Shown here in pieces: positions 2,953-34,455 of a stretch of DNA of 34,981 bases (the stretch's first letter is position 1; each line of letters begins with the position of its first letter). Under the pieces are notes generated by a model, which did not search any database, was not told the DNA's origin, and saw only the letters and a program-made list of their open reading frames with translations. This DNA comes from Methyloceanibacter sp. GTDB taxonomy: Bacteria > Pseudomonadota > Alphaproteobacteria > Rhizobiales > Methyloligellaceae. The position numbers were made by a program, and so were the translations under genes. The DNA lies in contig JAGPVD010000054.1 in assembly GCA_018067145.1 (NCBI GenBank), positions 1 to 34,981 of the forward strand, in the 5' to 3' direction.

Positions 2953-2956
<4 letters not shown>
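2267..2956 (+). CDS. purQ: Phosphoribosylformylglycinamidine synthase, glutaminase subunit PurQ
   Basis: PurQ hydrolyses glutamine and passes ammonia to PurL for conversion of FGAR to FGAM. The 229-residue product is a class I (triad) glutamine amidotransferase. The nucleophile Cys86 lies in GICNGFQ, the oxyanion region is [12 protein letters not shown] at about 47-58, and the catalytic His is in LMPHPER near the C-terminus. The start [16 protein letters not shown] matches other PurQ proteins. The last four bases overlap the purL start, indicating translational coupling. Confidence 0.97.
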
Positions 2957-5178
<2,222 letters not shown>

Positions 5179-10857: not shown

Positions 10858-13626
<2,769 letters not shown>

Positions 13627-13876: not shown

Positions 13877-15052
13877 CTAGCCGTCCAGCCCCGAACTGCC
13901 ACGCTTGCCCCGCCGGCCACCGCCAGCGATGGCTGCCACGGGCGCCACATCCTCGTTAAGGCCGCTGGCAGCTTCACTCTCACTTGTGGCCGCACTGTCC
14001 TCAGCCATCTCATCGAGGATCTTCCCACCATCGAGCCCCGCGCTCTGGCGCACGGCGCTCTCGATCTTGGCAGCCATGGCGGGATGCTCCCGCAAATAGG
14101 TCTTGGCGTTTTCACGGCCCTGGCCGATGCGCTCGCTGTCGTAGGAGAACCACGACCCGGACTTCTCGACGATGCCAGCCTTCACCCCAAGATCGACAAG
14201 CTCGCCCATCTTGGAGACTCCCTCACCATACATGATGTCGAACTCAACCTGCTTGAAAGGCGGCGCCACTTTGTTCTTCACCACCTTGACGCGGGTCTGA
14301 TTGCCGACAACCTCGTCACGATCCTTGATGGCGCCAATACGGCGAATGTCGAGGCGGACAGAGGCATAGAATTTCAAGGCGTTGCCGCCGCTCGTGGTTT
14401 CGGGTGAGCCGAACATCACGCCGATCTTCATGCGGATCTGATTGATGAAGATGACCATGCATTTGGACTTAGAGATGGAGCCGGTGAGCTTCCGCAGCGC
14501 CTGGCTCATCAGCCGCGCCTGGGCGCCCATCTGAAAGTCGCCCATCTCGCCTTCGAGTTCGGCTTTCGGCGTCAGTGCCGCCACCGAGTCGACCACCAAC
14601 ACGTCGATGGCGCCGGAGCGCACCAAGGTGTCGCCAATCTCAAGTGCTTGTTCTCCGGTATCCGGCTGGGAAATCAGCACCTGCTCCAGATCGACGCCAA
14701 GCTTGCGCGCATAGATGGTGTCGAGAGCATGTTCCGCATCGACAAAGGCGCAAACGCCGCCCTTCTTCTGGGCCTCGGCGATGACGTGCAAAGCCAGCGT
14801 AGTCTTGCCGGAGGATTCCGGTCCATAGATCTCAACGACGCGGCCGCGAGGCAGCCCACCAATGCCGAGCGCGATATCGAGGCCCAACGAGCCCGTCGGG
14901 ATCGATTCAATCTCGACCACGCTCTCATTCTGGCCAAGGCGCATGATCGAGCCTTTGCCGCAATTTCGCTCGATCTGGGAGATCGCCGCCTCAAGAGCCT
15001 TCTCTTTGTCCATCTCTCCCCCTTCGACAAGGCGCAATGCAGCGTTCGACAT
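13877..15052 (-). CDS. recA: Recombinase RecA with extended C-terminus
   Basis: A 391-residue RecA, the ATP-dependent strand-exchange protein and LexA coprotease. Walker A is GPESSGKTT (77-85), Walker B lies in [12 protein letters not shown], and the DNA-binding loop L2 region is [21 protein letters not shown]. The start [20 protein letters not shown] is preceded by GGGAGAAGA. The acidic tail ([19 protein letters not shown]) is followed by about 20 more residues ending in a basic [15 protein letters not shown]. That is about 30 residues longer than most rhizobial RecA proteins. The promoter overlaps an SOS box. Confidence 0.97.
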
Positions 15053-16998: not shown

Positions 16999-19542
16999 CT
17001 AGTCCTCCAGCGCGGCCTTCACCGCGGCGGCGAGCTGCTTCAGATCGAATGGCTTTTGCAAGAACATGAATTCCTCGTTCTCAGCCAGATTGCGGCGGAA
17101 CGCGTCCTCGGCATAGCCCGACATGAAGATGATCTTGATGTCGGGGTGATCGCGGCGCAGCTCGTTCATCAGGGTCGGACCATCCATCTCAGGCATCACC
17201 ACGTCGCTCACCACGAGGTCGACATCGCCTTCGTGGTCTTCGAAGACCTCCAGCGCCTCCGCGCCGGTCGATGCCTCAAGCACTTTGTAACCACGCTGGC
17301 CGAGCGCGCGGGCAGCGAAGGCTCTGACCGCGTCTTCGTCTTCGACGAGAAGCACGGTACCGCGCCCGGTCAGGTCTTTTGGCTTCTCGGGCATGCGCTC
17401 GAGCTTCTCCGGCTCCTGATCCACTTCGGCCGCCCCTGCCTCGTAGCGCGGCAGGTAGACCCGCATGGCAGTGCCTTTGCCCTCCTCGCTATCGACGAAG
17501 ATGTAGCCGCCCGTCTGTTTGACGATGCCGTAGACGGTGGACAGGCCAAGCCCAGTCCCCCGGCCGATCTCCTTGGTCGAGAAGAACGGCTCGAAGACCT
17601 TCGCCTGTACTTCATCGCTCATGCCACAGCCGCTATCGCGCACTTCGATCATCACATAATCCGCGGGCGGCAAATCGCTTAAGCCCAGCTCGCGCGACTG
17701 AAGCTCTGTCACATTGGCGGTGCGGATGGAGAGTTTGCCGCCATCCTCCATGGCATCGCGCGCGTTCACGGCAAGATTGATGACAACCTGCTCGAATTGG
17801 TGAAGGTCGGCTTTGACCGGCCAGAGATCGGTTGCCTGCTCTAGACTGAGTTCCACATTCTCGCCGAGCAGGCGGCCAAGTAGAATGGACAGTTCCGACA
17901 ACACCTCGCCGAGCTTGAGCACTTGCGGGCGCAAGGTCTGCTGGCGCGAGAAGGCAAGCAGTTGGCGCACGAGCCCCGCGGCCCGGTTGGCGTTCTGCTT
18001 GATGTTCATAATGTCCTGGAAGGCCGGGTCGGTGGGCCGGTGGTTCATCAGGAGGAAGTCGGAGAAGCCAATAATTGCCGTCAGCATGTTGTTGAAGTCA
18101 TGGGCGATGCCGCCAGCGAGCTGACCGACCGCCTGCATCTTTTGGCTCTGGGCGATCTGCATCTCAAGCGCCCGCTGCTCGGTCGTGTCGATCGCATAAG
18201 CAATCGTCGCCTCGCTCTCGCCTTCCGCCTTCTCGACCGGGCTCAAATAGATCCTGCCGCTACGTTCATCGGCGCCGGCAAAGGTGACATCGACGGGCTC
18301 GATCAGGCTTTGGCTCGCGGTCGCCGCCTCGAGCGCACGGCGCAAATCCTGGTGGCTGGCGGGCTCGACCAGGCTTTCGAGGCTCTCTTTGCTGCCGCCA
18401 TCAGCGTCGGCACCAAACATCCGGACGAAGGCAGCGTTGTTGGCGCTGACAACGCCATCCGCATCCACCGTGGCGATCGCGATGGGCGCGGAATGGAACA
18501 GGCGGGCAAATCGGAGTTCGGCATCACCCGCCTCCTCCGCCTCGCCCGGTCCGCGATTGAGGATCAAGACATGAGCCAAGCCGCTGGCCCGCGGGAGCCG
18601 ATGTAAAATGCGGACAGGCAGGTTCTTGCCGTCAGCTTTGACCAAGTCGACGTCGAAATGCCGCGTCGTCCCCTGCGTCTCGCCACGGCCGGCGCCGGCG
18701 ATAAGCGAGGCGTTGTCGTCCGACATGATCTGGCCGAGTTTCAGCGGCCGGTCGGCGACCTCCGACAGGTCGAGCCCGAGCCACTGAGCGAGTGTGGCAT
18801 TCAGATACTCAATGCTGCCGTCGGCGTCGGCGGTGAAGAACCCGGCGGGCGCGTTGTCGAGATAATCGATGGCCGCCTGCACCTTGGCGAAGCTCGTCTC
18901 TTCGCGGGCACGGTCTTGCGTGATCTCATCGACCTGCCAGACCACCAGCGCCCCTTTACGCCCCGACTGCGGATCGGGCGGCATGGGCTGAACAGAGATG
19001 CGGAACCAGCGTGGGCTGACGCCTGAATCATCCGGAACCTCACCTTGAGGCGGCAGCCGGAACTCCTCCCGCAAAGTGCCCCCCTGCTGCGCGGCGCGGG
19101 CCAGCCGGAAGATCGCCTCAGCGAGATGGGGGTTGCCACCAAATGCACGGTCGGGCGGCGGCACGGCGGCGTCAGGTTCGATCCCCAGTAAGTCGCGATA
19201 GGAACGGTTGGCGTAGAGCACGCGGCCCGTACCATCGGCGATCAGCGCGCCATGGGGAAGATTGTCGACAAACGCCTTGGTCAGATCGTTGCGGGCGTGG
19301 CGCTGGCCGAAATAGAGGATGCCGACGGCACCGGCGAACAGGCAGAACACGCCGACCACGGCAAGGCCAGCCAGGATCGCGAGTACGAATGGCTCGGCCA
19401 TCTCGCGCGACACCATCGCAAGCCCGACGGCGGCCATGGCAAGCACGAGGGCGAGAACCACGACAAGCCCCATACTGCCTTCGCGTTCGACACGGTCGGC
19501 GGCTGGCTCAGCATAGCGCATCGGCGCATCGGCATCTGTCAT
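16999..19542 (-). CDS. cckA: Cell-cycle hybrid histidine kinase CckA
   Basis: An 847-residue membrane-bound hybrid kinase/phosphatase. Two transmembrane helices lie at about 25-44 and 52-77. PAS-like domains follow at about 88-200, 225-325 and 345-455, then the H box VGQLAGGIAHDFNNML with phospho-acceptor His481. The ATPase domain has an N box (INLAVNARDAM) and G boxes (DSGCGMS, GRGTGLGLST). The receiver has acidic DED and phospho-acceptor Asp780 (SDVVMPEMDG). This layout and the H box are those of CckA, which phosphorylates ChpT and so CtrA and CpdR in alphaproteobacteria. ATG 19542 (MTDADAPMRY) was chosen; the open frame extends 32 codons further without family similarity. Confidence 0.95.
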   Translation of the reverse strand: MTDADAPMRYAEPAADRVEREGSMGLVVVLALVLAMAAVGLAMVSREMAEPFVLAILAGLAVVGVFCLFAGAVGILYFGQRHARNDLTKAFVDNLPHGALIADGTGRVLYANRSYRDLLGIEPDAAVPPPDRAFGGNPHLAEAIFRLARAAQQGGTLREEFRLPPQGEVPDDSGVSPRWFRISVQPMPPDPQSGRKGALVVWQVDEITQDRAREETSFAKVQAAIDYLDNAPAGFFTADADGSIEYLNATLAQWLGLDLSEVADRPLKLGQIMSDDNASLIAGAGRGETQGTTRHFDVDLVKADGKNLPVRILHRLPRASGLAHVLILNRGPGEAEEAGDAELRFARLFHSAPIAIATVDADGVVSANNAAFVRMFGADADGGSKESLESLVEPASHQDLRRALEAATASQSLIEPVDVTFAGADERSGRIYLSPVEKAEGESEATIAYAIDTTEQRALEMQIAQSQKMQAVGQLAGGIAHDFNNMLTAIIGFSDFLLMNHRPTDPAFQDIMNIKQNANRAAGLVRQLLAFSRQQTLRPQVLKLGEVLSELSILLGRLLGENVELSLEQATDLWPVKADLHQFEQVVINLAVNARDAMEDGGKLSIRTANVTELQSRELGLSDLPPADYVMIEVRDSGCGMSDEVQAKVFEPFFSTKEIGRGTGLGLSTVYGIVKQTGGYIFVDSEEGKGTAMRVYLPRYEAGAAEVDQEPEKLERMPEKPKDLTGRGTVLLVEDEDAVRAFAARALGQRGYKVLEASTGAEALEVFEDHEGDVDLVVSDVVMPEMDGPTLMNELRRDHPDIKIIFMSGYAEDAFRRNLAENEEFMFLQKPFDLKQLAAAVKAALED

Positions 19543-19690
19543 GGCCGAGAAACTACCCGATTCGACTTGTCTTGGCCGGAGATTGTCGTGGCAGCGTCGC
19601 GGCAGTATTCCACGCCCGCCAGCGTCCAAGCGCGCCAAACAGCGAGTTGATCATCGCCAGGCCGGAAACCCGGACGACCACCCATTACAG

Positions 19691-21558: not shown

Positions 21559-23016
21559 GTGCCGATTTCTACCTACACTGATGCCGCCGGCGATGCCGTT
21601 CGTAATATCGGCGACGTTGCATCCGGCCTTGTTACGCCAACGGTGAGGCTTGGCGTGACCGGCCTCGCCCGCTCCGGCAAGACCGTGTTCATCACCGCGC
21701 TCGTGCACAATCTCATCGCTGGCGGGCGCCTGCCCTTCTTCGATGCCGCGGCGCAAGGGCGCCTGTTGCGCGCCTATCTCGAACCGCAGCCCGACGAGAT
21801 CATTCCCCGCTTCGAATACGAAAAGCACTTGGGCGATCTCACCGGCGAGCCGCCGCGCTGGCCACAGAGCACGCGGCGCATCAGCCAGCTCAGACTCACC
21901 CTCGAATACGCCTCGACCAAGTTTTGGAAAAGACGGCTGGGGCACGAGCGCCTGCATATTGACATTGTCGACTATCCCGGCGAGTGGCTTCTCGATCTGC
22001 CGCTGCTCCGTCTCGACTACGCCGCGTGGTCGCGCGAAGCCGTCGAGCAAAGCCACTCACCAGACCGCAAGGACGCAGCGAAGACCTGGCACCGGGCTCT
22101 TGCAGCCACGGATCCCAGTGGCCCCGCCGACGAAGCCTATGCGGCGAAGCTGTCAGATCTGTTCAAGAAATATCTGAGCGACGCGCGTTCCGATCAATAC
22201 ACGCTGTCGACGTTACCGCCCGGCCGCTTCCTCATGCCGGGCGATCTCGAAGGCTCGCCCGCGCTGACCTTCGCGCCACTCGACGCGAAAGGTGACGCGC
22301 GGCTGCCGCGCGGTTCGCTATGGGCGCTGATGGAGCGGCGCTACGAGGCCTACAAAACCTACGTCGTGCGCCCGTTCTTTCGTGATCATTTTGCGCGTCT
22401 CGATCGCCAGATCGTGCTGATCGACGTGCTCGCCGCGCTGAATGGCGGGGCCACGGCGGTCACCGATCTCGAACGCGCCATGATCGAGATTCTGGAATGC
22501 TACCGCACCGGCTCCAACTCTCTGTGGTCGAGCCTGTTCACGCCGCGCATTGACCGCATCGTGCTGGCCGCCACCAAGGCCGACCATCTGCATCATGAGA
22601 GCCATGACCGGCTCGAAGCGATTCTTTCGCTCCTCACCGACAAAGCGATGGAAAAAGCCCGCTATGCCGGCGCCGAAGTGAAAGTTATGGCGCTCGCCGC
22701 CGTGCGTGCCACCCGCGAAGGGCAAGCCAAGCGGAACGGCGAGACGTTGCCTTGCATCGTTGGCTATCCCCTTGACGGTGAAACCATCGGGCAGCGCACA
22801 TTCGACGGCAACGAGGCCTTCGCCATTTTTCCTGGCGACCTTCCCGCCGACCCAAAGAAGGCCCTGAAAGGTTGGCACACCGAGGACGGTGACATGCGTT
22901 TCGTGCGCTTCCGTCCGCCGGACCCCGTGGCGCTCCCGTCCGGAGGCTTTGCGCCCTTCCCAAATATCCGGCTCGACCGTGCCATACAGGCCCTGATCGG
23001 AGACCGCCTCAAATGA
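21559..23016 (+). CDS. ycjX: YcjX/DUF463 family P-loop protein
   Basis: A 485-residue YcjX-type protein with an N-terminal Walker A, GLARSGKT (35-42), followed by FITALVHNLIAGGRLPFFDA, hallmark of DUF463. These are predicted GTPase-like stress proteins (the E. coli homologue is linked to the phage-shock operon). Further family segments are DIVDYPGEWLLDLPLL and IVLAATKADHLH, the latter the base-specificity-like motif. It begins at GTG 21559 with AAAGGA upstream and overlaps ycjF by four bases, so they are translated together. Cellular role is not well defined. Confidence 0.9.
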   Translation: MPISTYTDAAGDAVRNIGDVASGLVTPTVRLGVTGLARSGKTVFITALVHNLIAGGRLPFFDAAAQGRLLRAYLEPQPDEIIPRFEYEKHLGDLTGEPPRWPQSTRRISQLRLTLEYASTKFWKRRLGHERLHIDIVDYPGEWLLDLPLLRLDYAAWSREAVEQSHSPDRKDAAKTWHRALAATDPSGPADEAYAAKLSDLFKKYLSDARSDQYTLSTLPPGRFLMPGDLEGSPALTFAPLDAKGDARLPRGSLWALMERRYEAYKTYVVRPFFRDHFARLDRQIVLIDVLAALNGGATAVTDLERAMIEILECYRTGSNSLWSSLFTPRIDRIVLAATKADHLHHESHDRLEAILSLLTDKAMEKARYAGAEVKVMALAAVRATREGQAKRNGETLPCIVGYPLDGETIGQRTFDGNEAFAIFPGDLPADPKKALKGWHTEDGDMRFVRFRPPDPVALPSGGFAPFPNIRLDRAIQALIGDRLK

Positions 23017-23993
23017 ACAACAATACGCGCCGGCAGCCCGCCGCGTTCCGGGTCGAAGAGGTCGAGGTGTTCGTACCGCCAGAGCCGCCACTCTCTGAAG
23101 AGCGGCCGCTGCCAGCACCGCAGGTCCGGGCGATGCCCGACCTCAAGCGCGGCTTAGAATGGGGCAGCATCTTTTTCGGCGCACTCGGCGGGCTGGTCAG
23201 TCTCATCGCCTCGCTATGGCTCTACGACTGGGTGCTTTCACTCATCGCGCGGGACGACTGGATCGGCTGGGCGGCGGTCATCCTGCTCGGCCTCGTGCTC
23301 TTCGCCCTACTCATGATCGTCATTCGCGAGGCGGCGGGTCTCGTTCGTCTCGGACGCTTAGGGAAAATCCGCCACGAAGCCGATAGCGCCGCGCGGCAAA
23401 ATGACAAGGCGCTGGCTATCGACGTCACACGCCGCCTCAAAAGCTTTTACGCAGGACGTGAGGATCTCACTTGGGGGCTGGAGCGGCTGGCCGAGCACGA
23501 ACACGACATCATGAACGCGGAGGAGCTGTTGCGCCTCGATGAACGCACGCTCATCGCGCCGCTCGACCCCGTCGCCCGCAGCCTCGTCGCCGCCTCGGCC
23601 AAGCGCGTGTCAGTGGTGACGGCCGTCAGCCCGAACGCCGTAGTCGACATGCTGTTCGTCGCCACACAAAACTTGCGCATGCTGCGCAAGCTCGCGACGC
23701 TTTATGGCGCGCGGCCCGGCGCGCTGTCGCTGCTCAAACTCGCACGCATGGTGGTGACGCATATCGTGCTGACCGGCGGTATTGCGCTCGGGGACGACGT
23801 GCTTCAGCAAGTGATTGGCCACGGGCTCACCGCCAAGCTCTCGGCACGGCTCGGCGAAGGGCTATTCAACGGGGCCCTCACCACACGCATCGGCATAGCC
23901 ACAATCGATGTGTGCCGGCCCCTGCCCTATATGGAACAGCAGCGCCCGCGCTTCCGCGAACTCGTCGCCGAGGTGGCGGGGCTTGGGCAGTAA
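23013..23993 (+). CDS. ycjF: YcjF/UPF0283 family membrane protein
   Basis: A 326-residue inner-membrane protein of the TIGR01620/UPF0283 family that is genetically paired with YcjX. After a proline-rich N-terminus (residues 1-45) come two transmembrane helices, about 51-75 and 84-105, then a large cytosolic part with the conserved DUF697-like region (LSLLKLARMVVTHIVLTGG, about 236-254) and a C-terminal RPLPYMEQQRPRFRELV. The ATG overlaps the ycjX stop (ATGA). The two-gene arrangement and overlap support a joint membrane-stress role. Confidence 0.9.
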   Translation: MNNNTRRQPAAFRVEEVEVFVPPEPPLSEERPLPAPQVRAMPDLKRGLEWGSIFFGALGGLVSLIASLWLYDWVLSLIARDDWIGWAAVILLGLVLFALLMIVIREAAGLVRLGRLGKIRHEADSAARQNDKALAIDVTRRLKSFYAGREDLTWGLERLAEHEHDIMNAEELLRLDERTLIAPLDPVARSLVAASAKRVSVVTAVSPNAVVDMLFVATQNLRMLRKLATLYGARPGALSLLKLARMVVTHIVLTGGIALGDDVLQQVIGHGLTAKLSARLGEGLFNGALTTRIGIATIDVCRPLPYMEQQRPRFRELVAEVAGLGQ

Positions 23994-24013
23994 AATTGGG
24001 CAGTGGCCTTAGA

Positions 24014-24961
24014 TCAGTTTAAGAGCTTGCAGCCGTCCACGGCGACCTTGTGTACGCTGCCGTCGTCAAAACGCAGCATCATCTCGATCTCGTCGGCACA
24101 GGCTAACCCGCCCGCGCTCACGCGGAAGCCGCTCGTCCGGTCGCTTGAAGCTTGTGACTGCGGCCGGATCGCCGGTGTACTGAAATCGTAAGCAACGCCG
24201 ACCAATCGTCGTTTCATCGCGGCGGGCGGCTCCAGCCAAAGCTCGAAATGGTAGAGCGGCCGGCTGCGATCGGCGCCCTTGATCTCGGTGACTTTAGCCT
24301 TCAGCCAGCCCCCGACATCACTGCTATCGGGGAGACGCAACGGTGTCAGCGAGGCCGCCACCGGCTTCGCCCCGCCTGCGCGAGCCGCCACGGGCGTAGG
24401 CTTCAGTGGCGCAAACGGAACTGGCTCGACCGCATCCCAGGGGAGTTGCTCGCGGGCCTTGGAGAATTCCGCAAAGGCTTTCGGCTTGGCCCTTTTCTTA
24501 TCGTTGGGCGATCGGTTCCAAATCAGCTCCGGGGGAATCTCGCTCAAGCCAGCGAGGTTCGGTTCCTCATCGCGTGGTGGGGCCTTGGCAAGCACCGGCG
24601 CAAGCATCGTCGCCAAATGGCGTGGTGTGGAACCGGCTTTGGCAAGTGACGCGGTTGCGGCCTGGGCAAGATTTACGTGATCCAACTTTGCCTGGTCGAG
24701 TTTAGCCTGGTCGAGCTTAGCAATGATGGTCTCGCCGCCAGGTTTCGTTTGCTGGCTCACTTCGGGCGCGGTCAGCGTCTGGCCGTTCACGTCCGAACTA
24801 TGGATATCTTCGGTCGCAAAGAGATGCGCGGCGGACAATGCCACAATGCAGAACACGGCCAGACCGGCAAGCGAGGCGAAGCGGACGGTGCGGGCTCCAA
24901 AAACGCCGACCACATCAAGCAGTGCCTTAGCCGCAAGCGCCTTAGCCACAAGTGTCCGCAT
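24014..24961 (-). CDS. Membrane-anchored protein, possible YEATS-like C-terminus
   Basis: A 315-residue protein I cannot name. A single hydrophobic segment at about 28-47 probably anchors it, leaving most of it outside the cytosol. Then come four five-residue repeats of type AKLDQ (81-100), a long Pro/Ala-rich linker, and an ordered C-terminal domain (about 235-312) with YHFELWLEPP, VGVAYDF, SGFRVSAGG and LRFDDGSVHKV. The order of strands and the KDG-like turn recall the prokaryotic YEATS (pYEATS) immunoglobulin-like fold; that assignment is tentative. Two Cys (288, 311) in this domain could form a disulfide. ATG 24961 was chosen over a TTG nine bases upstream because GAGGGG spacing fits it better. 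Confidence 0.65.
   Translation of the reverse strand: MRTLVAKALAAKALLDVVGVFGARTVRFASLAGLAVFCIVALSAAHLFATEDIHSSDVNGQTLTAPEVSQQTKPGGETIIAKLDQAKLDQAKLDHVNLAQAATASLAKAGSTPRHLATMLAPVLAKAPPRDEEPNLAGLSEIPPELIWNRSPNDKKRAKPKAFAEFSKAREQLPWDAVEPVPFAPLKPTPVAARAGGAKPVAASLTPLRLPDSSDVGGWLKAKVTEIKGADRSRPLYHFELWLEPPAAMKRRLVGVAYDFSTPAIRPQSQASSDRTSGFRVSAGGLACADEIEMMLRFDDGSVHKVAVDGCKLLN
24662..24721 (-). repeat. 15-bp tandem repeat encoding AKLDQ units
   Basis: Four consecutive 15-bp units encode AKLDQ, AKLDQ, AKLDH and VNLAQ. The first two differ by one or two bases, the later ones are more diverged. Such repeats spread the helical surface in the extracytoplasmic linker and may vary in copy number by slippage. 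Confidence 0.7.
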
Positions 24962-25108
24962 GACGCGCAAAGTCCCCTCTTTGGAAAATCATATCACGCC
25001 GGCCCGGCGGCGCCAGAGAAACGCCACGCCGGCTTGAAATCACGCACGTTTTTTTCAGGAACGAGCTCAGTCTTTGAGCAGTTTCGTGGCTCTGTGCAGC
25101 AACCGGTT

Positions 25109-25138
25109 TTGTATGCTGCGGTGGATAGCGGGGATAAT
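25109..25138 (+). promoter_or_regulatory. Putative promoter of the longer candidate RNA
   Basis: TTGTAT (25109-25114), an 18-bp spacer and GATAAT (25133-25138) form a good sigma-70-like pair. Predicted start is near 25145. No coding gene begins downstream before the terminator at 25594. Confidence 0.5.
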
Positions 25139-25144
25139 CGTCTT

Positions 25145-25627
25145 GTTTTCGATGCGCGCCCGGCGCGCTGGGCTATCCTCCTAATTGTGAGTTGGCTGGT
25201 TGTAGAAGGTGCTGGCGGAGAGATCTGAAGGTGCCGGGAAACAGTCGGAAGGCTCGCTAGGGTAAGGCAAGCCCGAGGTCGTCCAGAGCCATGGACGGCT
25301 CAAGGCGGAGGGAAGTTAAACGCGAAGTGCCACGGTCTGTTGAAGTCGTCGCCGTACCGTGAGGCGAACTCGGCAGGGTAGTTTGCGCCACCGCAGCCCC
25401 CCGCTAACCCGGTTCCAGCCCGGCCAGGGCAAGGACCGCGTCGTAGCAACGCGACGGAAAACAAGGGCCGAGGTCAGGTCGCCGTGCCGCTTTATGGGCA
25501 ACCATGGAGCCGCATACGTGGCCAGGGACCGAGAGGTCTCGCGGCGCCGACTGATCGTCCCGAACGGGCGTGAGGGCGACATCGCAACAGGGAGGCGGGG
25601 CCCCAAAGCCCCGCCTTTCTTTGTTTT
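25145..25627 (+). ncRNA. Candidate structured RNA of unknown class, about 480 nt
   Basis: Most of the 725 bp from 24971 to 25695 has no plausible gene but behaves like one RNA gene: a promoter-like pair before it, an intrinsic terminator after it, and many local stems. Examples are CGTCCA/TGGACG at 25270-25287, a CGCGT/ACGCG pair around 25437-25453, and GGGACC-GAGA-GGTCTC near 25525-25540, with a GNRA tetraloop. Short open frames on both strands here lack coding character. I looked for RNase P RNA (GAGGAAAGTCC block), tmRNA (tag-coding ANDN, T-loop), 4.5S RNA and cobalamin riboswitch signatures and found none. It may also be a long 5' leader partly read into the lipoprotein gene at 25696. Confidence 0.5.
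25594..25627 (+). terminator. Rho-independent terminator before the lipoprotein gene
   Basis: GGCGGGGC (25594-25601) pairs with GCCCCGCC (25608-25615) around a 6-base loop, followed by a T-rich run (TTTCTTTGTTTT) to 25627. It points in the plus direction and ends 69 bp before the lipoprotein ATG, so it ends an upstream plus-strand transcript. Confidence 0.85.
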
Positions 25628-25695
25628 GCGCTTCCCAACAACTTCCTCACACACCCCTTTAGCTGACGGCGCCACGTCGATAAGATCGCGCGCCC

Positions 25696-26151
25696 ATGAG
25701 AACCCCTCGCCCAAGTTCCGCGTCTTATGCCGCCATCGCAGCCGCGCTGATCATGCTCCCCGCATTGTCAGCCTGCAGCACGGTGAGTGGCGTTAAAGGT
25801 CACGAGGGCGGCACTTCGAGCGAGCGAACCGCACGCGCCATCGAACCCAGCGATCCCTTGGCGCGGCCGACGCAAATTGGTTGGAATTCCGCGCGCGCGA
25901 CACGGTGCGGCTTCATCTTCAACCCAACCCAACTGCGATCAAATTATCTCGCCGCGGAAAGAACCGCGGGGCGCACACCAGCCGAAATGCGAAAGATCGA
26001 GAGAGCCTACGACTACACCCATGAGTCCGTGACCGGAATCGTCAATGACAATCCCAGCTACTGTAACAAAGAGCGGACCGACGCGATCAGGGTGGATCTC
26101 AATCGCTATCTCTCTGGCGACTACCGGGCCAAGGCGCGCATGCCGCGCTAA
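25696..26151 (+). CDS. Small lipoprotein of unknown function
   Basis: A 151-residue protein with a lipoprotein signal peptide: a hydrophobic stretch at 11-22 and lipobox LSAC with Cys27, so it is probably lipidated and membrane-anchored. The mature part has GWNSARATRCGFIFNPTQLR, followed by a helical RTPAEMRKIERAYDY segment. Two Cys (near residues 73 and 125) may be linked. I do not recognise the family, although similar small lipoproteins are common in Hyphomicrobiales. The last codons are duplicated just past the stop codon. Confidence 0.72.
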   Translation: MRTPRPSSASYAAIAAALIMLPALSACSTVSGVKGHEGGTSSERTARAIEPSDPLARPTQIGWNSARATRCGFIFNPTQLRSNYLAAERTAGRTPAEMRKIERAYDYTHESVTGIVNDNPSYCNKERTDAIRVDLNRYLSGDYRAKARMPR

Positions 26152-26187
26152 CAATCTCTAAAGCCGCGCATGGCGCGTTAGCGATCT
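26133..26187. repeat. 30-bp imperfect tandem duplication at convergent gene ends
   Basis: GCGCGCATGCCGCGCTAA around 26134-26151 recurs 30 bp later as CCGCGCATGGCGCGTTAG (26164-26181); over 25 bases, 20 match. The copy keeps frame and again ends in a stop (KARMPR-stop versus KPRMAR-stop). It supplies the very end of the anti-sigma gene on the other strand. Confidence 0.6.
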
Positions 26188-27047
26188 GTGTTCATAGCGC
26201 CGTTGACCGACGTCTGCGCCTTGGGCGCGGAACGTAGTGGCGACGCCGGCTCAAGCTTGATCTTGGTGGCGATACGCATCAGCAGACCGTCCTCTGCCTC
26301 GCCGGCAAGCAGATAGGCAACACCCTCTTCCGCCCAACCCACCGTGCCGATCGCCCCGTAGTGTTTCGGGGTCAGCGTACCCGAGCCCTCACCCTTCTTG
26401 GCGTATAACGCGAGCGGTGCGCCACTCGAGCCGAGAAACAAAATCTGGGTGAGCGGCTCGCCGCCGGAACGCAGAACTTGCGCGCGAACAAAACGGAATC
26501 CCTGCGGTTCGAGATTGGGAAGCTTGACGTCGGTGCCAAGAATTCGCCCGAGCTGGAAGGCAACGAAGTCCGGATTGCTCTGGCTCTTGAGCCCGACCTC
26601 CACACTTGCTCGGCTTAAGAGCGCATGCGCGCGTGCTGCCTCTTCCTGCCAGCCTGATGTAACCGGTGCCGTCTGCACCGGGAGCGTGACACCTTGTGCG
26701 CCGGGAGTGAGACCCGGGAAGGAAAGCGGCCAGCCATAGCCGACCGCCGCGAGGACGAGCGCCACGGCAATGCCAACCCCTGCAAGCGCAACCTTGGTGA
26801 TGCTCTGCTCATTAAGGCTGCTCTCCTGCACCTGCACCGACACCGATACGGCAGAGACGTCCATCTCCTCACCGGCCAAGATCGCTTCGAAAGCTGCCTC
26901 AAGACGGTTATGGGCTTGCTTCAAGGCTTCGACACGGGCGGCAATAAAGTCGTCCTGGTCGAGAACCTTCTCCACCGCGCGCGTCTGTTTGCGTGCGAGT
27001 TGTCCATCGACATACGCCACAAGAAGTTCGTCGCTGAGTTCGGTCAT
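26178..27047 (-). CDS. Transmembrane anti-sigma factor-like protein
   Basis: A 289-residue protein encoded 3' of and overlapping a sigma factor gene. The N-terminus MTELSDELLVAYVDGQLARK has the ELLxAYVDGxL start common to alphaproteobacterial anti-sigma domains, without the zinc-site HxxxCxxC. A transmembrane helix lies at about 84-105, placing the C-terminal 180 residues in the periplasm; that part has strands such as GFRFVRAQVLRSGGE and GAIGTVGWAEEGVAYLLAGE. It would hold the sigma factor at the membrane until a signal is sensed. The partner assignment rests on the four-base ATGA overlap. Confidence 0.82.
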   Translation of the reverse strand: MTELSDELLVAYVDGQLARKQTRAVEKVLDQDDFIAARVEALKQAHNRLEAAFEAILAGEEMDVSAVSVSVQVQESSLNEQSITKVALAGVGIAVALVLAAVGYGWPLSFPGLTPGAQGVTLPVQTAPVTSGWQEEAARAHALLSRASVEVGLKSQSNPDFVAFQLGRILGTDVKLPNLEPQGFRFVRAQVLRSGGEPLTQILFLGSSGAPLALYAKKGEGSGTLTPKHYGAIGTVGWAEEGVAYLLAGEAEDGLLMRIATKIKLEPASPLRSAPKAQTSVNGAMNTDR

Positions 27048-27604
27048 GGTGAACCTCTGAACCCTTCGGGATAGAGGGTTTCGACAATCGCCGCAGCCGG
27101 TGCGGGTGGCCGGGCACTCAACCGGTCGGCAAGAGCCGCACTAACGCGCACAAGCCGAGCGGCGATGATGTCGGTGCCGACGTCGAGTACGCGTCCCGCG
27201 TCTTCATGGTCGAACCCTTCGCCGTAGACGAGGAGAAGCGTGAGACGCTGTTGCGCGGGCAGTCCGCTGAGAAAGCCAACGACCGGCGTATCCAAGTAGC
27301 CGTCGACCTCCTGATAGAAGAGTTCTTCGAAACCGGCGTCAGCAATCTTGGCTTGCGTGACCGGATTGGCATGGCCGCGAAGCTCATGCAGCCAGTTCCG
27401 GTAGATCTCGCCGAAGGCCCACACATCGAGCGCCGTACCAACTTGGTAACGGTACTGTTCAGCCAACATGCAATGCAGCGCGCGGCTGAGCAGGACGGTG
27501 CCTTCACCGCGCTCGCCAACCAAAACATCGGCAAAACGCATCAGTCTCGGCAACATGGCAACAAGGCCTGGCCGTACGGAGTGCTGATAATCTTCTGCCT
27601 GCAC
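27044..27604 (-). CDS. ECF-type sigma factor
   Basis: A 186-residue extracytoplasmic-function-like sigma factor. Region 4 is clear at about 108-162 (FLSGLPAQQRLTLLLVYGEG, then DHEDAGRVLDVGTDIIAARL) with a helix-turn-helix. Region 2 at about 12-75 is diverged, with WAFGEIYRNWLHELR matching the region 2.4 end. It starts at GTG 27604, preceded by GGGGGA eight bases upstream. The anti-sigma gene follows with a four-base overlap. It is not EcfG, which pairs with small soluble NepR. Target promoters are unknown. Confidence 0.82.
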   Translation of the reverse strand: MQAEDYQHSVRPGLVAMLPRLMRFADVLVGERGEGTVLLSRALHCMLAEQYRYQVGTALDVWAFGEIYRNWLHELRGHANPVTQAKIADAGFEELFYQEVDGYLDTPVVGFLSGLPAQQRLTLLLVYGEGFDHEDAGRVLDVGTDIIAARLVRVSAALADRLSARPPAPAAAIVETLYPEGFRGSP

Positions 27605-27637
27605 GCCTTGTCCCCCGTCGCTTGGGTTAGTGCTGGC

Positions 27638-27647
27638 TTCGTACGAA
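27638..27647. promoter_or_regulatory. Palindrome between the sigma factor and methyltransferase genes
   Basis: TTCGTACGAA is a perfect 10-bp palindrome 34 bp upstream of the sigma factor start, within the 178-bp divergent intergenic space. It could be an operator for autoregulation. A possible extended -10 TGCTATTCT faces the sigma gene further upstream, around 27661-27675; no convincing ECF-type -35 was found. Confidence 0.3.
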
Positions 27648-27782
27648 TTTCCCCTAGCGAATCAGTAGAATAGCACAATTCGGCGAACGCTCATGGGATA
27701 GCCCCAGCCGATGCATTGCCTAAAAAGCGCTTGCTTCGCAGTGCTCGCGTGCTCAATCTTTATGCATGAGGGGGAATTTCCA

Positions 27783-28718
27783 ATGACGGTCGCACCGCCC
27801 GACCCGGGTCATCCGGAGACGCAGGCGGACGCTGTTTCCGGAACAACGGACGCGACACCGAGCGCGACCGCAACAGCGCGTGGCGCGTGGCAAAACCGTC
27901 TCGCCGGGCGCATCGCCAAACTCGCAGACAAGACTTGGAGCCAAACCAATCGGCTTACCAAGGAACGCATCGCGCACGCCGCCGAGAATGTGCTGCCCGA
28001 GATCGAACGCACTAGCGCCAAGCTCAAAGAGCATGCGCGACCGGAACGAATGAAGCAGGATTATCGTGAGATACTCCATTGGCTTCATGAGCGCGTGCTC
28101 GATCCGCCGAAAGAGCAATTGTTCTTCGCGCAAACAAAAGACCCTGTTGCGCTTTCAGGGCTCACGATCAACGCCATAACCCGCGAGTACGGCCACGATT
28201 ACCGGCCGACGCCTTGCCAGTTGTTTGAGTGGACGCTGGCCGCCATCGACTACGATCTGTCAAAGCTGACCTTCGTCGATCACGGCGCCGGTAAAGGGCG
28301 TGTAATGCTGCTCGCTTCGGAACATCCGTTCGCGGCCATCGCGGGCGTTGAGTTTGCCGAGGAACTGCACGACGCTGCCACGATGAACATCCAGCAATAT
28401 CCGCGCTCGCGCATGCATTGCCGTAATGTGGAATGTATTTTGGAAGATGCGTGTCAGGTTGGGCCGCTGGAGGGCGAGGCCGTCCACTATTTCTTCAACC
28501 CGTTCTCACGCGAGGTCTTCGCGGAAGTCTTAAATAATCTCGTGGTGTCGTACCGCCAAAGGCCGCGGCGGCTTTACCTGATCCTCGTCGATCCAGTGGC
28601 GACTGATCTTGTTGACGAGAGCGGCGTGTTCGCGCGCATGGAACTTCCGACGCAAGAACGCCTCAAGGTCCGGCTGTTCAGCCCCTACGAGATTGCGATC
28701 TACCGTTCGTTAGCCTGA
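27783..28718 (+). CDS. Class I SAM-dependent methyltransferase, DOT1-like
   Basis: A 311-residue protein with a class I methyltransferase core in its second half. The cofactor motif is FVDHGAGKGRVMLLA (164-178), followed by GVEFAEEL for the acidic ribose-binding Glu and FFNPF (237-241) as motif IV. Preceding helices (HDYRPTPCQLFEWTLAAI) resemble the DOT1/histone-methyltransferase-like fold. The N-terminal 100 residues are Ala/Thr-rich and charged, probably disordered or coiled. The ATG at 27783 was preferred over an upstream one because GAGGGGGA stands before it. Substrate unknown. Confidence 0.82.
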   Translation: MTVAPPDPGHPETQADAVSGTTDATPSATATARGAWQNRLAGRIAKLADKTWSQTNRLTKERIAHAAENVLPEIERTSAKLKEHARPERMKQDYREILHWLHERVLDPPKEQLFFAQTKDPVALSGLTINAITREYGHDYRPTPCQLFEWTLAAIDYDLSKLTFVDHGAGKGRVMLLASEHPFAAIAGVEFAEELHDAATMNIQQYPRSRMHCRNVECILEDACQVGPLEGEAVHYFFNPFSREVFAEVLNNLVVSYRQRPRRLYLILVDPVATDLVDESGVFARMELPTQERLKVRLFSPYEIAIYRSLA

Positions 28719-28727
28719 CCGCCAGCC

Positions 28728-29762
<1,035 letters not shown>

Positions 29763-30714: not shown

Positions 30715-33700
30715 ATGGCGCAGGAACGAGCAAAGTCGCCGTCCACGAAAGCGACGCCGGAAGCCAAAGATGAAGCCAAAGACGAGGCCAAAGGCCTTCT
30801 GGACGCGATGACGGCGAGTGACAAAAACAAGGGAAAGTCGGAAGAGACCTCCAAGCCAGAGCGCAGCTCCGAACTGCCGAGTCGTTCCACCCTGGCCGAT
30901 CGGCTCAAGGCAGAGCAGCGCAAACGCGAAGAGCCGAAGTCACGCGAATTCAAGCGTGAAGAGGCAAAGCCACACGATTTGAAGAGCGAAGAGCCGAAGC
31001 CACAGTCCTTCAAACGCGAAGAGGAAGCCAAGCCCGCCGAAGTTACCGAAGCTCCCGCTGGCGCGCCCTCTCCTAATAGTAATATGTCGAAGACGCGCCG
31101 TCCTGCCGGCCCGCCGCCCCAGCGCCGTCTCGCGGCGCCCGCCAATGACGACGTCCCGTCAATCGGCGGTCTGATCTTCGCCCTTCAGCAGAGACCGTCG
31201 CGCACGCCATTCCTCGTGGCGCTGGCAGCCTCCGCCGTTTGGTTCATTGTCGGCGGCTTCTTTGCTTACGGCGTCATTGCGAACCAGACCTCCGGCAACG
31301 GGCTCCTCAGCGCGTCGGCTCTGTCGGCGACCGCTGCCATTCTCGTTCCCATCGTCGTTTTCTGGTTCCTCGCCCTTCTCGTGTGGCGCGCCCAAGAGCT
31401 ACGCCTCATGGCCTCGGCCATGACCGAGGTCGCCGTTAGGCTCGCCGAGCCCGACAAGCTGGCCGAGCAGTCTGTGGCCTCCGTGGGTCAGACCATCCGG
31501 CGCCAGGTGGCAGCCATGAACGACGCCATCTCTCGCGCCATTGGCCGGGCGAGCGAGCTTGAGTCCATGGTGCATAGTGAAGTCGCTGCGCTCGAACGCT
31601 CTTATGGCGAGAACGAGCTTCGCGTCCGGAACTTGATCAACGAGCTCGCCACCGAGCGCGAGGCCCTTACCAACAACAGCCAGCGGGTCAGCGAGGCATT
31701 GAAGGGCGTGGGCGTGCAAGTGGCGCGTGACCTCTCCAACGCCAGCGGCTTGATCGACAAGAAGCTTTCCGAGCGGGGCACGCAGCTCACCGAGCTTCTC
31801 GTCTCACGTTCCAGCGAGGCCGCCGAGCAGGTGCACAAGGCGCAATCCAAGGTCACGGAAGCGGTGCCGGGCCTGCTTGAACGTTTGACCAAGGAGCAAG
31901 GGCGCCTCACCAAAGTCATCGACGGCGCAGCGCAGAACCTCTCCTCGCTTGAGACCGTGGTGGCCGAACGGACCACTGTCCTCGACAAGACCATGAAGGA
32001 GCGGACCGAGGCACTCCAGAGCTCGCTCGTCGAGCGCATCAAGGGGATGGAAAGCACGGTCGCCCAGGGCGCAATTGTCCTCGACAAGACGCTTAAGGAA
32101 CGTTCCGAGACGTTCATGGCCGAAATCGGCAAGAGCACGACGACGCTCGGCAAGACCCTTACGGAGCGTACCGACACGTTCACCGGCCTCGTCGCCGAAA
32201 GCGCGGTCACTCTCGACAAAACACTCACGGACCGTACGGCCGGTCTCACCAACGTGGTCGCCGAGAGCGCCGTCATCCTGGACGAGACGCTCACGGAGCG
32301 TACGAACGCCTTCACTAATGTCGTCGCCGAGAGTGCTGTCACGCTCGACAAGACGCTTGCTGATCGCACGAACGCCTTCACAGGCGTCGTTGCCGAGGGT
32401 GCCGCTACTCTCGACAAGACGCTTTCAGATCATACCAACGCCTTCACCAATGTGGTCGCCGAGGGTGCCGTTACTCTCGACAAGACGCTTACGGACCGCA
32501 CCGACGCCTTTACCGGCGTGGTGTCGCAAGGCGTCGTCGCCTTCGACAAGACCCTTACGGAGCGTACCGACGCGCTGGGCACAGTGATCGACGATCGGGC
32601 CAGCGCGGTGGACAAGACGCTTGCCGATCGCACGGCCCAGTTCACCTCGGCGGTTAACCAGGGCGCTATCGCGCTCGACCAGACACTCGCCGAACGCGCC
32701 GACACCTTCACCAAGTCGCTGCTTGATCGGGTTAAGGGATTAGAGGCTGCCATCACGGAGCAGACCGCATCGCTCGACAAGACCATGAGCGAGCGGGCAC
32801 AGCTCGTGATCGCCTCGCTAACCGCGCGGCTAGGTGACATTGACGGAACCTTCGGTGAGCGCACAGCCGAGACCAACACCATGCTTGGCGAGCACACGCG
32901 CATGGCCGAGGAAACTTTTGGCAAGCAGACAGCGCAACTCAACGAAGTTCTCGCCAACAACTCGCAGATGATGCAGCAGACGGCGGAGCAGGTTGGCGCC
33001 CAGTCCAAGGAGGCGGTGGGCATCCTCACCAGCCAGACCGGCAATCTGCGCGACGTCTCACGTGGACTGCTCGATCAAATTCATGGTCTTACCCAGCGCT
33101 TTGAGAGCCAGGGCCAAGCCATCCTGACCGCGGCCAAGGCGCTCGATTCTTCAAACGCCAAGATCGACTCGATCCTCGAAGGCCGCCATAAGTCCATCAT
33201 TTCTCTCCTGCACACGGTCAACTCCAAGGCGCAGGAACTTGACGGCAAGATGGGTAACTATGCGGGCATCGTCGAAGGCGCGCTGAACCACGCCGAGACC
33301 CGGGCGAAGCAGGTGACCGCAGCGCTTGGCCGCGACACCACCGGTCAGGCCCAGCAGGCCCTCGCCCAGATCGAGAAGCTCCGCCAGGACGCACAGGCTC
33401 ATACCGCCGGCGCCGTCGCCGACCTCAAGGGTAACTTCGAGACGGTCATCACTCAGGTCGGTAAGCAGCTTGAGCAAATGCGTGGGCAGTTCGACAACAC
33501 CTCACGCGGCATGCGCGACACGGCCCGGAAGACCGCAGGCGATCTCGACGCCCTGCGCCAGGAAATGCAAAAGCGGATGGACGTGCTGCCCGAGCAGACT
33601 GCGAAGGCGACAGCCTCAATCCGCAAGGTAATGACTGAGCAGTTCCAGGAAATCGAGGCACTTGCCCCCACCCTGCCGGCGCATGCTCCTATTCCTGCTG

Positions 33701-34455
33701 CGGCGCCCGCTCCGGTTCCTGCTGCGGCGCCCGCTCCGGTTCCTGCTGCGGCGCCCGCTCCGGTTCCCGCAGCCAATATCGGCGGTGTGGATCCTTACCA
33801 GCAGCAGCCCCAGCAGTTACCGCCGCGCGCCGACGAAGGCCGTCCGGCAGGCGATTACGGTCTGCCGCCAATGCCGAGATTTGATGCGCGAGGGCGGCAG
33901 GTTTCGCCGCAGGAGGCAACCGATCTCGACCAGACGGCAGGGCTCGCACAGCAGCTGTCCAGCGCGTCCGGCCAAGGCAATCGGCCGATAGGCGACCTGC
34001 TCGCGCGGACCCCGGACCAGCCTGATCAGGCTTACGACGGTCAGGGTTACGGTGGCGCCCAAAACTTGCGCGGCGGCCAGCCCCAAGGTGGCATGGCTCA
34101 AGACGGCATGGCGCCTTCGATTGCCAGCCAGCTGCGCATCGACGAGCTAGCACGGGCGATTGATCCCCGTACGGCCACCGATGTCTGGCACCGCATGCGG
34201 GCAGGCGAGCGTGGCGTACTCGGACGGCACATCTATAGCTATGAGGGTCAGGCGACGTTCGAGGAGGTCTCGACCCGCTACGATCGCGACGGCGAGTTCC
34301 GCAACACAGTCGACCGCTATATCGGTGACTTTGAGCGGTTGCTGGCGGAGGCGGAACAGTCCGACCCGGCTGGCCAGATGCTCCAGAACTACCTGGCATC
34401 GGAAACCGGCCGCGTTTACCTGCTGCTGGCCCATGCCAGCGGACGGCTACGCTAG
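30715..34455 (+). CDS. GPR-like apolipoprotein-repeat coiled-coil protein (polar growth)
   Basis: A 1246-residue protein. A charged, Lys/Glu/Pro-rich N-terminus (1-145) is followed by two transmembrane helices (about 165-188 and 202-224). A very long helical region then carries 22-residue repeats of the form VVAEGAVTLDKTLTDRT plus five residues (clearest at 493-624, weaker flanking copies), a Pro/Ala linker (about 984-1022), and a conserved C-terminal domain (about 1135-1246; DVWHRMRAGERGVLGRHIYS, FRNTVDRYIGDFERLL, GRVYLLLAHASGRLR). That C-terminus and the 22-mer, apolipoprotein-A-like repeats match GPR of Agrobacterium, a large ring-forming protein at the growth pole; the copy here is much shorter. 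Function is inferred by similarity. Confidence 0.8.
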   Translation: MAQERAKSPSTKATPEAKDEAKDEAKGLLDAMTASDKNKGKSEETSKPERSSELPSRSTLADRLKAEQRKREEPKSREFKREEAKPHDLKSEEPKPQSFKREEEAKPAEVTEAPAGAPSPNSNMSKTRRPAGPPPQRRLAAPANDDVPSIGGLIFALQQRPSRTPFLVALAASAVWFIVGGFFAYGVIANQTSGNGLLSASALSATAAILVPIVVFWFLALLVWRAQELRLMASAMTEVAVRLAEPDKLAEQSVASVGQTIRRQVAAMNDAISRAIGRASELESMVHSEVAALERSYGENELRVRNLINELATEREALTNNSQRVSEALKGVGVQVARDLSNASGLIDKKLSERGTQLTELLVSRSSEAAEQVHKAQSKVTEAVPGLLERLTKEQGRLTKVIDGAAQNLSSLETVVAERTTVLDKTMKERTEALQSSLVERIKGMESTVAQGAIVLDKTLKERSETFMAEIGKSTTTLGKTLTERTDTFTGLVAESAVTLDKTLTDRTAGLTNVVAESAVILDETLTERTNAFTNVVAESAVTLDKTLADRTNAFTGVVAEGAATLDKTLSDHTNAFTNVVAEGAVTLDKTLTDRTDAFTGVVSQGVVAFDKTLTERTDALGTVIDDRASAVDKTLADRTAQFTSAVNQGAIALDQTLAERADTFTKSLLDRVKGLEAAITEQTASLDKTMSERAQLVIASLTARLGDIDGTFGERTAETNTMLGEHTRMAEETFGKQTAQLNEVLANNSQMMQQTAEQVGAQSKEAVGILTSQTGNLRDVSRGLLDQIHGLTQRFESQGQAILTAAKALDSSNAKIDSILEGRHKSIISLLHTVNSKAQELDGKMGNYAGIVEGALNHAETRAKQVTAALGRDTTGQAQQALAQIEKLRQDAQAHTAGAVADLKGNFETVITQVGKQLEQMRGQFDNTSRGMRDTARKTAGDLDALRQEMQKRMDVLPEQTAKATASIRKVMTEQFQEIEALAPTLPAHAPIPAAAPAPVPAAAPAPVPAAAPAPVPAANIGGVDPYQQQPQQLPPRADEGRPAGDYGLPPMPRFDARGRQVSPQEATDLDQTAGLAQQLSSASGQGNRPIGDLLARTPDQPDQAYDGQGYGGAQNLRGGQPQGGMAQDGMAPSIASQLRIDELARAIDPRTATDVWHRMRAGERGVLGRHIYSYEGQATFEEVSTRYDRDGEFRNTVDRYIGDFERLLAEAEQSDPAGQMLQNYLASETGRVYLLLAHASGRLR
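32191..32586 (+). repeat. Six 66-bp tandem repeats in the GPR-like gene
   Basis: Units begin at 32191, 32257, 32323, 32389, 32455 and 32521, exactly 66 bp apart, each encoding 22 residues with LDKTL or a variant. More diverged units extend to about 31960 and 32850. The strict period shows recent expansion and a regular amphipathic helix. Confidence 0.88.
33697..33768 (+). repeat. Three 24-bp repeats encoding a Pro/Ala linker
   Basis: Copies at 33697, 33721 and 33745 are identical except for the last base of the third. Each encodes AAAPAPVP. This perfect short repeat is prone to slippage and joins the coiled-coil to the C-terminal domain. Confidence 0.92.

Follow-up and report, generated by a model that had tools for sequence, protein, structure and literature searches.

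A conserved structured RNA gene of Methyloceanibacter and its apparent relatives in viral contigs

The RNA gene and its neighbours

The window, by which we mean the whole stretch of 34,981 nucleotides analysed, comes from a 2.34 Mb draft genome (G000) of Methyloceanibacter (Hyphomicrobiales). Its housekeeping genes include those for PurL (2953-5178, plus strand), AlaS (10858-13626, minus), RecA (13877-15052, minus) and CckA (16999-19638, minus). A sigma-factor-like gene (27044-27604) adjoins an anti-sigma-like gene (26178-27047, minus strand), both scoring under the curated cut-offs, and the frame at 30715-34455 (plus) specifies a protein of 1246 residues with relatives in Hyphomicrobiales, no NCBIfam match at 1e-10 and Pfam matches below the cut-off only.

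Positions 25187 to approximately 25625 of the plus strand are occupied by a gene for a conserved structured RNA of about 439 nt, which is undescribed; the titles and beginnings of abstracts of the literature covered, a scope that leaves out bioRxiv and most subscription journals and is therefore weak evidence of absence, hold no account of it. The gene is flanked upstream by the divergent up1 (24014-24970, minus strand), which has no assigned family, and downstream by dn1 (25696-26151, plus strand), which is lipoprotein-like by eye and matches nothing in Pfam at 0.001 or in NCBIfam at 0.01.

A near-invariant element, GTGGATNNNGGGGA(T/A)AA, precedes the RNA in all 16 loci with a complete upstream region. 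In the window it reads GTGGATAGCGGGGATAA (25121-25137, plus strand) and holds two GGATA half-sites 9 bases apart; written as GTGGATANNGGGGATAA it occurs in 6 of 21 genomes, in one copy each, and the reversed control is found in none. This is probably an activator-type binding site for a putative factor, through which the RNA gene would be switched on. Its likeness by eye to tandem DnaA boxes led us to consider a replication origin, but dnaA lies approximately 1 Mb away in G004 and G014, and also in G018 if that record is circular, so that an origin does not explain the element.

Conservation points to the hexamer TATCCT at 25174-25179 (plus strand), which is aligned with TATGCT, TATAGT and similar sequences in the relatives, as the likely -10 element, with the RNA likely starting near 25187; the length of about 439 nt follows from this placement. 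A consensus scan of positions 22000-29000 for sigma-70-type promoters found none, where 1.2 are expected by chance. The original prediction had put the -10 element at about 25132 (GATAAT), inside the near-invariant element, where the relatives mostly have GATAAG, and its promoter must be moved approximately 40 bases downstream. The strong intrinsic terminator that it described is well founded: it spans 25589-25626 on the plus strand, with a stem of 13 pairs (25589-25620) followed by a T-rich tail, and all 18 loci have it at the corresponding position. A scan of the whole region gave 10 terminator-like sites against 7.5 (sd 3.0) in shuffled sequences, which makes the number of sites uninformative; the stem at 25589-25620 is the longest of the ten.

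Between this terminator and dn1 there is a promoter-like element, TTTAGC-N15-GATAAGA (25658-25685, plus strand), present in 12 of the 18 loci and missed by that pattern in L004, L006, L012, L015, L017 and L018. The related form TTTAGC-N15-G(A/C)TAAGA is closely trailed by an ATG in 12 of 18 loci, and the dn1 mRNA may have a very short leader.

Conservation, coding potential and fold

A DNA search of 101 genomes gave a match in 19, one of which (G089) comprises the terminator only and was left out. Homologues are thus found in 16 of 17 genomes of the genus and in both genomes of the sister genus g3, the sole genus genome without a match being G007, which is 80% complete; the search gave nothing in the family's 11 remaining genomes. 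The 5′ domain was also searched as a covariance model, with ten candidates per genome scored, so that diverged copies could be missed; it picks out 9 of the 297 genomes searched in the order, each belonging to one of the two genera. When the pattern of the invariant hairpin described below was searched with up to two mismatches, 18 of 151 relatives matched, every one at this locus, and the reversed control gave 1 match. The records of M. superfactus and M. methanicus also carry the hairpin with the same neighbour genes.

Gene dn1 is found beside the RNA in all 18 loci and up1 is matched in 15; two of the three loci without up1 (L002 and L016) begin within the RNA. Two outgroup loci, L043 and L052, have both neighbours with no recognisable RNA in between. 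The restriction of the homologues to one lineage, their fixed synteny and the RNA-less outgroup loci show that the RNA is a fixed gene of that lineage.

No protein frame is open across the set of 16 full-length sequences, and single-base insertions or deletions part the window sequence from each of the 15 others. Two frames of the window, 25316-25714 (minus strand) and 25359-25796 (plus strand), were rejected as genes: their similarity in the relatives is fragmented, mostly by stops or frame shifts, and neither is open in all 16. Some stop-free pieces occur, for instance of 104 residues in L011 and L014 (minus strand) and 131 residues in L007 (plus strand), as GC-rich DNA allows. A tmRNA-like tag reading through the hairpin (GCA ACG CGA ..., seen by eye) was likewise dismissed, its stop codon varying among the chromosomal copies.

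The plus strand folds strongly (z -4.33, with 0 of 100 shuffles as stable), whereas the minus strand does not (z +0.58, 73 of 100). The consensus structure was built from the 16 full-length sequences, with L002 and L016, which are cut by contig ends, and L019, which has the terminator only, excluded. Thirty-three of its 113 predicted pairs have changed on both sides, compared to 15.1 (sd 2.4) in shuffled alignments, none of 500 shuffles reaching 33, and the cell count is 81 compared to 24.6. Slid versions of the structure yield 7 to 14 double-change pairs; since the real structure was taken from the same alignment it is favoured in this comparison, and the shuffles ignore relatedness. Despite both reservations a real fold is very likely, because with measures that count pairs or types such a result arises in 0 to 1% of the tool's own structure-free trials.

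On the plus strand the fold includes a 5′ hairpin, GGGTAAGGCAAGCCC (helix 6, 25260-25274), and a conserved stem, GGUCGUCCA/UGGACGGCU, followed by CAAGG (helix 7, 25277-25300), which bears a weak resemblance to the phage module GGUGGC..GCUGCUCAAUGGG. Compensatory changes are richest in the central long-range domain (helices 8-10, 25304-25405), where 16 of 30 pairs show a double change. Helix 12 (25439-25456) is the invariant hairpin, CGUCGUAGCAACGCGACG, and is followed by the A-rich tail GAAAACAAG (25457-25465; consensus NNAAANAAG). All six of its pairs are constant in the 16 sequences, against a mean column identity of 73%. Pairs that never vary give no evidence for the pairing itself, and such constancy points to sequence-specific recognition rather than to folding alone. 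A candidate pseudoknot between a loop and the 5′-end, GCAAC with GUUGU, was noted by eye.

Rfam 15 at its gathering cut-offs gives no match in the window, in L070-L072 and L019, or in the eight viral loci described in the next section. The best match below the cut-off is to ar35 (RF02346) at 25503-25625, with 21.8 bits against 45 and an E-value of 0.095, the alignment being best over the terminator. RNase P RNA type A (RF00010) and alpha-tmRNA (RF01849), whose motifs the original prediction did not see, are excluded because the genome has its own copies on other contigs, C126 (312.1 bits) and C140 (280 bits), respectively. Of the checks that had been proposed, a search of Rfam, conservation in relatives, covariation among homologues and the test for a conserved frame were run, and their results support the view that the unit is self-contained and gives rise to an RNA outside the known classes.

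Relatives in viral contigs and one other draft genome

The hairpin with its tail is shared with eight viral contigs (L075-L082) and one other alphaproteobacterial draft genome (G321). Among 385 genomes searched in the class the exact pattern is found in two (the source genome and G321), and among 398 in the phylum in one (the source genome); a looser form, with 18 bases fixed, recovers these eight viral contigs again, and two other forms find 3 and 5 of those eight and no further ones. Viral L075 and chromosomal L013 share an identical run of 28 bases, from CGTCGT to AAGG (L055, also in that comparison, is a named record of the same contig). The hairpin match exceeds chance.

A model of the 3′ domain (R1), searched against 289 genomes of the class, finds the source genome and three weak matches. 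Two of these, L070 and L072, lie inside or over coding frames and were set aside as chance. The third, L071 in G321, carries the hairpin as GCGTCGTAGCAACGTGACGTTAAATAA, matches the chromosomal 5′ model (R2) weakly upstream, in the right order (13.2 bits, E 0.074), and directly follows a transposase gene of the IS1595 family; the G321 draft is 7% contaminated, and the contig that bears the element has 5785 bases. In locus L209 (contig C606 of G321) the RNA relative stands between the transposase gene and a frame of 215 residues that has no assigned family, with a HEAT-repeat gene beyond, and it may be a mobile unit.

In six of the eight viral contigs (L075, L076, L078, L080, L081 and L082) a gene for a Q-like antiterminator, an endolysin or a spanin lies nearby, on the opposite strand from the RNA. 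Of the L079 neighbours scanned, those matched are a methyltransferase and a tail protein, and L077, of 1119 bases only, was left out of the neighbour scan. Hosts were looked up for two of the eight contigs with one protein each: the nearest annotated phage infects Pseudomonas for the L081 terminase (68.6%) and Stenotrophomonas for the L080 resolvase (56.7%). Three of the mobile RNAs were folded, giving z-values of -2.19, -2.66 and -4.78, with 3, 0 and 1 of 100 shuffles as stable; L071 and L079 were left out of the phage-only fold, and L078, a near-copy of L077, out of the alignment (A4). Neither the window RNA nor the L080 RNA has a match in phage and plasmid records. A second viral pattern, made for the 5′ modules, finds at least 120 stretches, and the hairpin follows it in 7 of 122 loci, all among the first eight contigs.

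All nine mobile copies, that is the eight viral ones and L071, have an ATG frame for a hydrophobic peptide of 27-28 residues beginning approximately 51-64 nt past the hairpin pattern; a purine-rich, Shine-Dalgarno-like stretch stands ahead of it in L071, L076 and L082. Among the 16 chromosomal copies, no frame of 18-45 residues within 130 bases of the hairpin tail reaches the same hydrophobicity threshold. A VDL core is seen in the 28-residue frame, approximately 58-64 nt after the pattern, in each viral contig (L075-L082). The peptides have no family match in PHROGs (four tried) or Pfam (two tried). Differences among seven of the mobile frames, L078 and the 27-residue L071 being omitted, number 259/161/213 on codon positions 1, 2 and 3, and 326 of 374 differing codons alter the residue; as position 3 is not the most variable, what speaks for selection on the peptide is its length, start and hydrophobicity, not a pattern of codon change.

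Beyond the hairpin, hardly any alignment is seen between phage and chromosomal RNAs. A descriptor comprising a GGU-stem and an NAA, composed after both groups had been viewed, fits 9 of 9 mobile copies, ending 119-136 nt before the hairpin in eight and 190 nt before it in L079, and 10 of 16 chromosomal copies, at 130-133 nt; in shuffled upstream regions a fit at 110-145 nt occurs in 6 of 8000 chromosomal and 0 of 4500 mobile ones. A model of the mobile 5′ modules (R3) places its best match where expected at one of the 16 chromosomal loci (L015; 12.3 bits, E 0.86) and gives seven weaker chromosomal matches elsewhere and none in the window. Of 20 viral loci selected with the 5′-module pattern and lacking the hairpin, three give this model higher scores, 14.8-18.7 bits, at the pattern sites, so that it is not specific. 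In the reverse direction R2 detects nothing next to the hairpin of the eight viral loci, and the eight viral matches to R1 are not independent, as the loci were chosen by the hairpin. The kinship outside the hairpin is suggestive only; given this weak similarity and the unspecific R3, we grade shared descent of the whole RNA as no more than likely.

Proposed role and comparison with known systems

We surmise, with slightly better than an even chance of being correct, that the window holds a gene with its own terminator for a trans-acting RNA that has kin among phage RNA genes and was kept without the peptide. The RNA would act in trans, as a structured RNA or as part of a ribonucleoprotein, and at the invariant hairpin with its A-rich tail a partner shared by alpha- and gammaproteobacteria would dock in a sequence-specific manner, the nature of this partner being a guess. 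In the related phage gene, placed like an independently expressed accessory gene, the same hairpin lies approximately 60 nt ahead of the frame for the 28-residue hydrophobic peptide, which could act at the membrane, e.g. in exclusion or in the timing of lysis. The ancestor of Methyloceanibacter and its sister genus would have retained the RNA at one chromosomal locus, minus the peptide; this may be a viral RNA that the bacteria retained for some purpose, or alternatively phages may have acquired it from bacteria. A bolder version, which we put forward tentatively and at appreciably less than an even chance, is that these genes form a new class of large phage RNA near the late-gene switch, on the opposite strand, in which a structured RNA is combined with a membrane peptide of 28 residues, and that the RNA alone was domesticated in a methylotrophic lineage of Hyphomicrobiales as a fixed, vertically inherited regulator or ribonucleoprotein core.

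Several other explanations have to be weighed. The RNA could be a cis-acting leader, such as a long riboswitch or attenuator, whose terminator controls dn1, and the constant presence of that gene on the same strand, 75 bases past the terminator stem, speaks for such a leader. However, a promoter-like element intervenes in two-thirds of the loci, no RNA is recognisable beside the dn1 of outgroup loci L043 and L052, and no relative of dn1 occurs in the nine mobile loci, where the sole match at E ≤ 0.1 (0.052, L081) is inside the terminase gene. The upstream element, the invariably present terminator and dn1's own promoter-like element favour a separate unit, without proving it, and a leader seems unlikely to us. 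The resemblance between phage and chromosome might also be confined to the hairpin, an element that binds a common host factor and either originated in or was transferred to two RNAs with no other kinship. The weak similarity outside the hairpin and tail is as expected from this, but the GGU-stem and NAA module lies at similar spacing in both groups and is rare in shuffles, and the 5′ match of L071 is in the right order; we think it rather unlikely.

It is quite improbable that the chromosomal RNA, like the mobile copies with their peptide frame and occasional Shine-Dalgarno-like stretch, is a structured mRNA for a small membrane peptide of the kind known from type I toxin-antitoxin mRNAs, for none of the 16 chromosomal copies has a comparable frame, single-base insertions or deletions break the frames that exist, and even the mobile frames lack a codon signature. 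The least probable alternative by our estimate, and a very improbable one, is a diverged member of a known family (ar35, tmRNA or RNase P) or a functionless remnant. The ar35 (alpha-r35) sRNA is also an alphaproteobacterial RNA, and the two resemble each other weakly at the 3′-end, but its model has 144 positions compared to about 439 nt here and the score is less than half of the cut-off, with the terminator aligning best; tmRNA and RNase P RNA are encoded elsewhere in the genome, and compensatory changes speak against a remnant. We retain the trans-acting RNA related to a phage gene as the preferred reading.

The RNA has covariation support, its locus is single and fixed in a genus of which some members are in culture, and phages carry apparent relatives with an extra peptide frame. 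RNAs with and without the peptide offer a natural comparison from which to learn how a host takes over a phage RNA and to which partner the invariant hairpin binds.

Large structured RNAs are rare in bacteria, and some have proved to be ribozymes or the cores of ribonucleoproteins. GOLLD, ROOL and OLE are taken to be Rfam families, the first two being often phage-borne, and none of the three is matched at the gathering cut-off in the window or in the eight viral loci. As a kind, the RNA belongs with these large structured bacterial RNAs, but it has no match to any tested family. It shares with GOLLD, ROOL and OLE that it is a large bacterial RNA with an intricate fold; some such RNAs form nanocages (PMC12286853). 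It differs from them in its length of about 440 nt and in its phage copies, which have a peptide frame after the RNA and Q or lysis genes near it in six of eight contigs. The mobile copies, with a structured RNA and a small hydrophobic peptide frame on phage DNA, recall prophage type I toxin mRNAs, hokW-sokW for example (PMC8621323); unlike these, the chromosomal copies have no such frame (0 of 16, against 9 of 9 mobile ones). In the make-up of the locus they are also comparable to dicBF of the Qin prophage, a prophage locus that yields both a small RNA and a small protein (PMC10448788).
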